Source: Halorussus pelagicus
GTDB taxonomy: Archaea; Halobacteriota; Halobacteria; Halobacteriales; Haladaptataceae
Length of the DNA: 64,000 bases
Reading direction: 5' to 3'
Assembly (NCBI RefSeq): GCF_004087835.1
Contig: NZ_CP035119.1
Span: forward strand, 1,302,001 to 1,366,000
Shown here: positions 21,881 through 23,886 of the stretch, piece after piece
Layout: each line of letters starts with the position of its first letter
Position numbering within the stretch: position 1 is the stretch's first letter
The notes under the pieces: generated by a model
What the model saw: the letters and a program-made list of their open reading frames with translations, nothing else
The model's database searches: none
Told to the model about the DNA's origin: nothing
Program-made: the position numbers and the translations under genes

Positions 21881-22215
21881 GACGCGTTCGACCCGGAAAA
21901 CCTCGAATTCTCGCGCGCACCCCGACCCACGGTACTGCGTCCCATCCGACGACGCCGGGCAACGAACGTCCGGAAATCGAGTGGTCGAGCGTTCGCTTTC
22001 TGGACGGAATACAACCTTATATCGATATTATCCGATTGTAAATCGGACGACCGTCTACCGAAAACCCAGTATTCTATAGAATATCAACACTTACTCTTAT
22101 GTACTGCTTTGCCGTCACACTATATCGTGACCGAACACACGAAACCAGAAGAATTCGAGATATTCCTGAACAGTCGTCCAGACGATTTGGTGGTAATGCC
22201 GACGGAGGGAGAGTC
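21881..22215. promoter_or_regulatory. Upstream region of the ammonium transporter gene, with two palindromes
   Basis: Contains an AT-rich core from about 22013 to 22100. TCCGATT-GTA-AATCGGA (22031-22047) is a perfect 7-bp inverted repeat, and TATTCTATAGAATA (22070-22083) is a perfect 14-bp palindrome. Their spacing of about 23 bases makes them good operator or promoter candidates, perhaps for nitrogen control. No coding sequence is credible here. Confidence 0.5.
22204..22208 (+). promoter_or_regulatory. Shine-Dalgarno site supporting the GTG start of amt
   Basis: GGAGG lies seven bases before GTG 22216, a good spacing, and favours that start over ATG 22231. Confidence 0.5.
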
Positions 22216-23886
22216 GTGATAGACGCACTCATGCAGGTGGACCCCAACCCGATAGCCAGCGGGGTCAACCACGTCTGGGTCCTGACCGTGACCTTCCTCA
22301 TCTTCTTCATGCACGCGGGCTTCGCCATGCTGGAGGCCGGGCAGGTCCGGTCAAAGAACGTCGCCAACCAGTTGACCAAGAACATGCTGACGTGGAGCGT
22401 CGGCGTGCTGGTCTACTTCCTCATCGGCGCGGGCATCTCGTCGGTCGTCGGCGGGAGCGCCGACCCCTTCGCCTACGTCTCGGGCGGGTCGGACTCGTGG
22501 ATCGGCTGGCTCTTCGGCGCGGTGTTCGCCATGACGGCGGCGACTATCGTCTCGGGCGCGGTCGCCGGTCGCGCGAAGCTCCGGGCCTACGTGACCTACA
22601 CCGTCCTGCTGTCGGCAGTCATCTACCCGGTCGTCACCGGCGTTACGTGGGCTGGCGGCTTCCTGACCGAAATCGGACCGGGCTTTCAGGACTTCGCGGG
22701 CGGCATGATCGTCCACGGGATGGGCGGCATCGCGGGCCTGACGGCGGCGTGGATTCTCGGCCCGCGGATGGACCGCTACGACGACGACGACGGGTCGGTC
22801 AACGTCATTCCCGGTCACTCGGTGACGTTCGCAGTCCTCGGGACGCTCATCCTCTGTTTCGGCTGGTACGGCTTCAACGTCGGCACGGCCGCGAGCGTCT
22901 TCGTCGTCGAGAACGGCGAACTCGCGCTTGCCGCATTCGCCGACACGGTGGGCCGCGTCGCGCTGACGACCACGCTCGGCATGGCCGCGGGCGCAATCGG
23001 GGCCTCGACGGTCTCGCTTATCAAGACCGAGAAAGTTGACACGCTCTACGTCGCCAACGGGATGTTGGCGGGGCTGGTGGGTATCACCAGTAACACGAAC
23101 GCGATTACGTGGACCGGCGCGCTGGTCGTCGGCCTGCTCGCTGGCGGGCAGTTGCCCGTCGTCTTCGAGTTCGTGGAGCGGAAGCTCAAAATCGACGACG
23201 TGTGCGCGGTCTTCCCGGTTCACGGCTCGGCGGGCGTCCTCGGGGCGCTCGCGTTCCCGTTCTTCGCCGTTCCGGGCTACGAGGTCAGCTTCGTCGCGCA
23301 GGCCGCTGGCGTCGGCGTTATCGCGCTGTGGACGGTCGCCGCGACCGGGTTCGTCTTCGGCATCCTGAAGCTCCTCGGACAGGCCCGCGTCAGCAGCGAA
23401 CACGAGCGCGAGGGTCTCGACATCACGGAACACGGCGTGGACACCTACCCCGAGTTCGGCGGCCCGGACGTGGAGGGAACCGCTGTCCGGGCCGACGGGT
23501 CGGGACTGCGCGCTGACGGCGCTGGCGACCTGCCCAACGCGGGGGGCATCAAGATGGTCACGGCCGTCGTCCGCCCCGACCGCCTCGGCGACGTGAAGAC
23601 CGCGCTGGCGCAGGTCGGCGCGCCGAGTCTCACGGTCACGAACGTCTCGGGCCGCGGAAGCCAACCCGCCAAGACCGGCCAGTGGCGCGGCGAGGAGTAC
23701 ACCGTGGACCTCCACCAGAAGGTGAAAATCGAGTGCGTCGTCGCCGACGTGCCCGCCGACGAAGTGGTCGAGGCCATCCGCGAGGCCGCCGACACCGGCG
23801 AACCCGGCGACGGCAAGATATTCATCATCCCGGTCGAGGACGCCTGTCAGGTCCGGACCGGGGTTCGCGGCACTGAGGCGGTGTAG
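22216..23886 (+). CDS. amt: Ammonium transporter fused to a C-terminal PII (GlnB/GlnK) domain
   Basis: Protein of 556 residues. Residues 1-400 are an Amt channel with about eleven hydrophobic segments ([49 protein letters not shown] with a pore histidine). From about residue 444 a full PII domain follows ([23 protein letters not shown]-loop ending RGEEYTVD with Tyr495 at the uridylylation position; [10 protein letters not shown]). In most genomes amt and glnK are separate, with GlnK plugging the channel when nitrogen is plentiful; here the regulator is tethered. GTG 22216 has an SD-like GGAGG at 22204-22208; ATG 22231 is the alternative. Confidence 0.92.

Follow-up and report, generated by a model that had tools for sequence, protein, structure and literature searches.

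PII is a soluble hub that reports the nitrogen and energy state of the cell to many targets; in E. coli it diffuses freely, acts on further targets as well, and is under the control of GlnD. What, then, becomes of PII control when the protein is built into the ammonium channel itself? The question is raised by a single open frame in the window analysed here, a stretch of 64,000 nucleotides of the haloarchaeon Halorussus pelagicus (contig NZ_CP035119.1, positions 1,302,001 to 1,366,000 of the forward strand), in which an Amt channel is followed by a PII domain. We think it probable that the product is an ammonium transporter gated by the T-loop of its own tethered PII, which would read ATP/ADP and 2-oxoglutarate. 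The parts of the fusion, in positions of the window, are these.

22216 to 23886, plus strand: Amt-PII fusion gene, 556 amino acids, GTG start and TAG stop (open frame and Pfam).
22273 to 23448, plus strand: Amt channel domain, residues 20-411 (Pfam; pore residues invariant in 57 fused homologues).
23449 to 23547, plus strand: linker, residues 412-444, predicted to be disordered (pLDDT below 50 for residues 407-440).
23548 to 23883, plus strand: PII (GlnK-like) domain, residues 445-556 (Pfam, match to 4ozj, conserved residues, dN/dS of 0.10-0.25).
23656 to 23712, plus strand: T-loop, residues 481-499, with Arg491 and Tyr495 (alignment to E. coli GlnK).

Pfam recognizes Ammonium_transp at residues 20-411 (model positions 1-399 of 399, E 2.4e-93, 313.5 bits against a cut-off of 23.2) and P-II at residues 446-549 (model positions 2-101 of 102, E 7.4e-28, 97.3 bits against a cut-off of 25), and no other domain in the 556-residue protein; against TIGR00836 the Amt part reaches 322 bits, below that model's cut-off of 343. 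Together with the alignment, these matches bear out the original prediction that one frame holds a complete Amt and a complete PII with an intact T-loop and Tyr495. That prediction had also allowed for a sequencing error hiding a stop codon near 23400-23540, but the stretch between the domains is free of stops and the frame is intact. The protein is 90% identical to that of Halorussus ruber and 88% to that of H. aquaticus, both of them unbroken fusions, and the fusion is likewise unbroken in 93 of the 113 loci for which domain positions were worked out, so that an error in sequencing can practically be dismissed; fusions in 213 genomes, together with the intact orthologues, also rule out chance read-through. 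The GTG at 22216 aligns with an ATG in most orthologues of the genus and is therefore the right start. A longer gene beginning at the ATG at 22099 was considered and rejected because the added 5' stretch is interrupted in some relatives; that region also carries a small ORF, in a different frame.

Is the C-terminal part, so placed, still a PII? Its best solved relative is 4ozj (120 aligned residues, E 9e-57), deposited as nitrogen regulatory protein P-II, which is a GlnK of Haloferax mediterranei. Arg491 aligns to Arg47 of E. coli GlnK, the pore plug position, and Tyr495 to Tyr51. Counted by rows rather than by independent species (some rows are all but identical, and the window's own locus is there three times), 93 fused PII domains keep the Arg47 equivalent without exception; the Tyr51 equivalent is Tyr in 88 and Phe in five, the equivalents of Gln39, Lys58, and Lys90 are kept in all 93, and that of Arg103 in 92. 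The ligand and T-loop residues are much like those in 34 free haloarchaeal PII proteins, and Arg101 of E. coli PII is replaced by Gln in the window's protein, as in most haloarchaea. When the window's gene is compared with those of five relatives, dN/dS comes to 0.10-0.25 in the PII part and to 0.14-0.24 in the Amt part; it is usually higher in the linker, which is usually the least constrained part of the fusion. Such ratios indicate purifying selection on the fusion. A profile search of the window's genome for GlnD_UR_UTase gave no match, although the same search did find it in three bacteria, the only positives among 14 control genomes. Since the tyrosine is replaceable by Phe and no GlnD was found, uridylylation is argued against as the switch. 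The expectation that control would lie with ATP/ADP and 2-oxoglutarate instead fits the retained ligand residues, and by analogy with the AmtB-GlnK system the fused domain would respond to these molecules.

The channel half carries the main uncertainty, which is whether it transports ammonium or senses it. The selectivity-filter Trp, the Phe gate, and the twin His are all present, although the filter Ser is replaced by Thr224; Phe104/Phe220, Trp145, Asp159, and His167/His336 are invariant in the 57 fused homologues, and the C-terminal region of the Amt part (residues 391-414), counterpart of the GlnK-facing region of AmtB, is retained. The solved relatives closest in sequence are nonetheless sensors, Ks-Amt5 (6eu6, 166 bits) and Sd-Amt1 (8qj3, 147 bits), ahead of AfAmt1 (105 bits) and AmtB (about 100 bits), and Foldseek ranks them in the same way. 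This likeness speaks for a different account, in which the fusion serves chiefly as a sensor of ammonium (transceptor), its Amt part binding ammonium and signalling to its own PII with little or no transport; we regard this account as unlikely. Because Ks-Amt5 and Sd-Amt1 are closest by both sequence and fold, the features of Ks-Amt5 were mapped onto the fusion. The pore of Ks-Amt5 is closed by three bulky residues, F27, Y30, and F34, and the protein has a seven-residue high-affinity ammonium site (PMC5764959). At the pore-closing positions the fusion has F36, L39, and Q43, so that one of the three is shared, and L39 and Q43 are invariant in the 57 homologues. At the ammonium site three residues are identical (E40, N56, T110) and one is similar (S113), as a sensor might have them, but three differ (Q24 to H33, D50 to T59, T51 to W60), among them one of the site's acidic pair. 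The fusion thus has neither the pore closure nor the full seven-residue site of a Ks-Amt5-type sensor. It also holds the genome's sole Amt, and a PII domain is not known to have an output of its own. On balance the residue pattern favours a transporter over a sensor.

How a tethered T-loop might reach its pore can be considered on a predicted structure. AlphaFold2, run on the 57-sequence alignment (mean pLDDT 77, pTM 0.71), gives two folded domains separated by a disordered stretch at 407-440, the first a channel of long helices with short helices at the C-terminal region of the Amt part, the second a PII fold whose T-loop comes out flexible, residues 474-501 being of low confidence. In Foldseek the channel matches solved Amt structures, one of them the E. 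coli AmtB-GlnK complex. By simple arithmetic the linker of about 33 residues could span up to ~110 Å when extended, and therefore sterics do not bar the T-loop from the pore. The linker (412-444, at 23449-23547) is not featureless: TDGG or RTDGG motifs recur both within the linkers of fusions and at the tails of haloarchaeal Amts encoded on their own, more regularly than a plain spacer would give.

A related system is the E. coli AmtB-GlnK complex (2ns1, 2nuu), which likewise brings channel and PII together, whose Arg47 and Tyr51 positions are kept here, and whose Amt fold is matched; it differs in that the E. coli PII is diffusible, whereas that of the window is tethered and no GlnD was found. 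Gating, ligand response, and the trimer arrangement described in the following are all carried over from it. Three chains would form the Amt trimer, and their three tethered PII domains a PII trimer beneath it. With nitrogen plentiful (low 2-oxoglutarate, ADP bound) the T-loops would enter the three pores, with Arg491 as plug; with nitrogen scarce (high 2-oxoglutarate, ATP bound) they would rearrange and withdraw, PII staying attached through its flexible linker of ~33 residues. Switching would then be a matter of ligand-driven loop conformation at high local concentration, involving neither an encounter of two proteins nor uridylylation, and the earlier suggestion that the block is purely conformational is a plausible one. 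The domains, the invariant transport residues, the T-loop, the GlnK-facing region, the want of a GlnD match, the single copies, and the dN/dS values all lend support to tethered gating, while the closeness of the Amt part to sensor Amts, the change of Arg101 to Gln, and a possible internal start of PII may count against it.

Tethering acquires its full meaning from copy number. The window's genome (3.49 Mb, 99.8% complete) has one P-II match and one Amt match, both in the fusion; the profile search for other glnK genes that had been proposed as a check turned up none, and amt is likewise single. Because the fusion carries the sole Amt and the sole PII, the two stand in the 1:1 ratio that tethering was expected to fix. 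No free, diffusible PII of about 112 amino acids is encoded: PII is solely the C-terminal domain of the 556-residue fusion, and the PII sequence of this locus accordingly denotes a domain and not a free PII protein.

Nor is the arrangement peculiar to one species, as the survey of haloarchaea called for in the original prediction makes plain. P-II was searched in 392 genomes of the order, and 320 of those with a match were then read for open-frame length; the 30 of the 392 with no P-II match at all lie outside the 320. These sets are samples and take in incomplete assemblies. With fusion defined as an open frame of at least 500 amino acids around the P-II match, a rule that agrees with the domain positions in 113 loci, 213 of the 320 genomes (about two thirds) carry it: 186 have the fusion and no other intact P-II and 27 have both kinds, while 105 have free P-II only and two have partial matches only. 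Within the window's genus 15 of 17 genomes are fusion-only, and in 79 of 80 genomes picked for having the fusion there is one Amt, the fused one. In a sample of 393 genomes of the phylum no fusion was found outside the order: matches spanning both domains there always had stops, and the score of a fused protein would have sufficed for it to appear among the matches. In five haloarchaeal genomes (G239, G189, G173, G201, and G387) two or three P-II domains lie close together, some of them as a fusion followed by free P-II genes.

Since the fused PII is usually the only PII of the cell, other PII tasks, such as control of glutamine synthetase, would be carried out at the membrane or be lost. The window's genome has two genes of the glutamine-synthetase fold, so that an enzyme which PII might be expected to regulate is present, and GlnK activates glutamine synthetase in Haloferax mediterranei, according to passages of PMC3831643. 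How glutamine synthetase is controlled when free PII is absent thus becomes a question in its own right.

Does tethering matter to the cell at all? Linkage of the two genes might instead be easily gained and lost, the fusion being (nearly) neutral and adding nothing to control, an account that we hold to be quite improbable. A tree of 138 Amt domains, built with no outgroup, falls into two lineages, the smaller nearly all unfused and the larger with 88 fused and 28 unfused rows, and groups of the latter, including one Haloferax pair, are nested among the fused rows. At least ten changes between fused and separate states are needed, of which eight are forced by well supported branches, and the states are mixed within families. 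Easy gain and loss would produce such a pattern, and would sit well also with the few bases by which separate amt and glnK genes usually overlap, with the one Haloferax pair that shares a frame with a single stop between, and with the similar DGG-rich tails of separate Amts. Set against this are the fusion's presence in 213 of 320 genomes and the absence of free PII from 186 of them, which would be odd if tethering were inconsequential, because free PII can serve other targets. As to direction, the simpler reading is one early fusion with several later splits, because the separate genes usually overlap or, in the Haloferax pair, share a frame with a single stop, although direction stays unproven on a tree that has no outgroup. 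In Haloferax, at L078:4612-6468 and elsewhere, one stop codon is all that parts amt from glnK within a shared frame, and on the Amt tree these genes nest among fused relatives; the arrangement looks like a split fusion. A genome of the window's own genus (G156, locus L019) combines an Amt of the second lineage (79% identical to its nearest relative) with a PII 90-93% identical to that of Halorussus, as a fusion with the same small ORF upstream; there the channel half has apparently been swapped for another, and the fusion and the upstream ORF kept.

A rival to the preferred reading, a transporter gated by its tethered PII, is that PII is also released from the channel, either through translation from an internal start (Met447) or through a cut in the disordered linker, to give a normal diffusible form as well. 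Of 94 fused genes, 81 have an in-frame ATG or GTG where PII begins, from which a certain amount of free PII could be made; the window moreover has GGGGGG upstream of that codon, and passages of PMC3831643 describe a 20-kDa C-terminal fragment of AmtB1-Flag in Haloferax membranes. Yet 13 of the 94 genes have no such start codon, only six have a ribosome-binding-like sequence before it, and Met is common at that column in free PII too, where it is not the start. Release is in our judgement very improbable.

The same two domains occur in the same order in the AmtB1-GlnK1 and AmtB2-GlnK2 systems of Haloferax mediterranei, and one Haloferax Amt sits within the fused lineage of the tree, but these are separate proteins, described as pairs, and the passages found in PMC3831643 mention no natural fusion. 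Ks-Amt5 (6eu6), the closest solved sequence to the Amt part, is likewise a natural Amt with a C-terminal signalling domain, though its output domain is a histidine kinase and its pore-closing residues and ammonium site are partly shared (PMC5764959); for Amt modules joined to other domains, that paper cites a 2009 review by Tremblay and Hallenbeck. It had been foreseen that the fusion might prove to be family-wide and already described. It is in fact spread over about two thirds of the haloarchaeal genomes read. A search of the open full-text literature turned up no paper on a natural Amt-PII fusion; subscription reviews could mention one, and public domain databases must show such an architecture. 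A large archaeal group in which the sole PII is fixed to the sole ammonium channel sets the gating of the channel by PII apart from everything else that PII does, and provides a natural single-chain system for studying how a T-loop opens and closes a pore.

Upstream of the fusion lie further features.

22127 to 22219, plus strand: unannotated small ORF, GTG start, 30 amino acids (conservation, pN/pS, recurrence in the family).
22096 to 22103, plus strand: TATA-like CTTATGTA, about 27 nt before the start codon of the small ORF.
22045 to 22058, plus strand: GGACGACCGTCTAC, candidate operator of the form GGAC[A/G]NNCGT (motif enrichment).
22032 to 22046: inverted repeat CCGATT-GTA-AATCGG, adjoining GGACGACCGTCTAC.

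The TGA of the small ORF overlaps the GTG of the fusion (GTGA). In an alignment of 15 sequences of the genus, its frame gives a pN/pS of 0.37, against 0.88 and 1.28 for the two alternative frames, and 25 of the family's 28 genomes have the ORF, although some of the matches are weak. It has no match in Pfam, and neither profile nor pattern found it in other haloarchaeal families; it turned up only among relatives of Halorussus and Haladaptatus. Stand-alone copies suggest that it encodes a working peptide and not a mere leader: Haladaptatus sp. DYF46 has a second copy downstream of a fusion (L089:5870-6127), and another genome has a copy on the minus strand with no adjoining fusion (L192, G082), its neighbour being a gene similar to the porphobilinogen-synthase-like one that lies upstream in the window. 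Being co-encoded, the small ORF is a concrete candidate for an extra regulator of the fusion. In Methanosarcina mazei, which lacks GlnD, the 61-residue sP36 mediates the interaction of GlnK1 with AmtB1, and homologues have been reported in Halobacteria (PMC10714827). The likeness, drawn from description and not from sequence, is that of a small protein tied to Amt-PII regulation in archaea that lack GlnD; the difference is one of length, 61 amino acids against 30. Somewhat against the odds, and offered tentatively, is the larger proposal that most haloarchaea gave up diffusible PII, the sole PII having become the built-in gate of the sole channel, assembled once and split several times, and that in the window's family a third, so far undescribed component of 30 amino acids modulates the gate.

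Two upstream palindromes had been put forward as adding nitrogen control, and in that role neither finds support: TATTCTATAGAATA (22070-22083), although a perfect palindrome, is absent from every other member of the genus examined, and TCGTCCAGACGA (22173-22184) is conserved as the codons S-R-P-D-D of the small ORF. CTTATGTA, or something similar, holds a conserved position in nearly all members of the genus, and its spacing suggests a leaderless transcript beginning at the small ORF, at 22127. The motif GGAC[A/G]NNCGT occurs in 31 of 71 regions upstream of haloarchaeal Amt genes (loci including L033-L112), against 2.1 expected from first-order resampling; the related species counted are not independent of one another.
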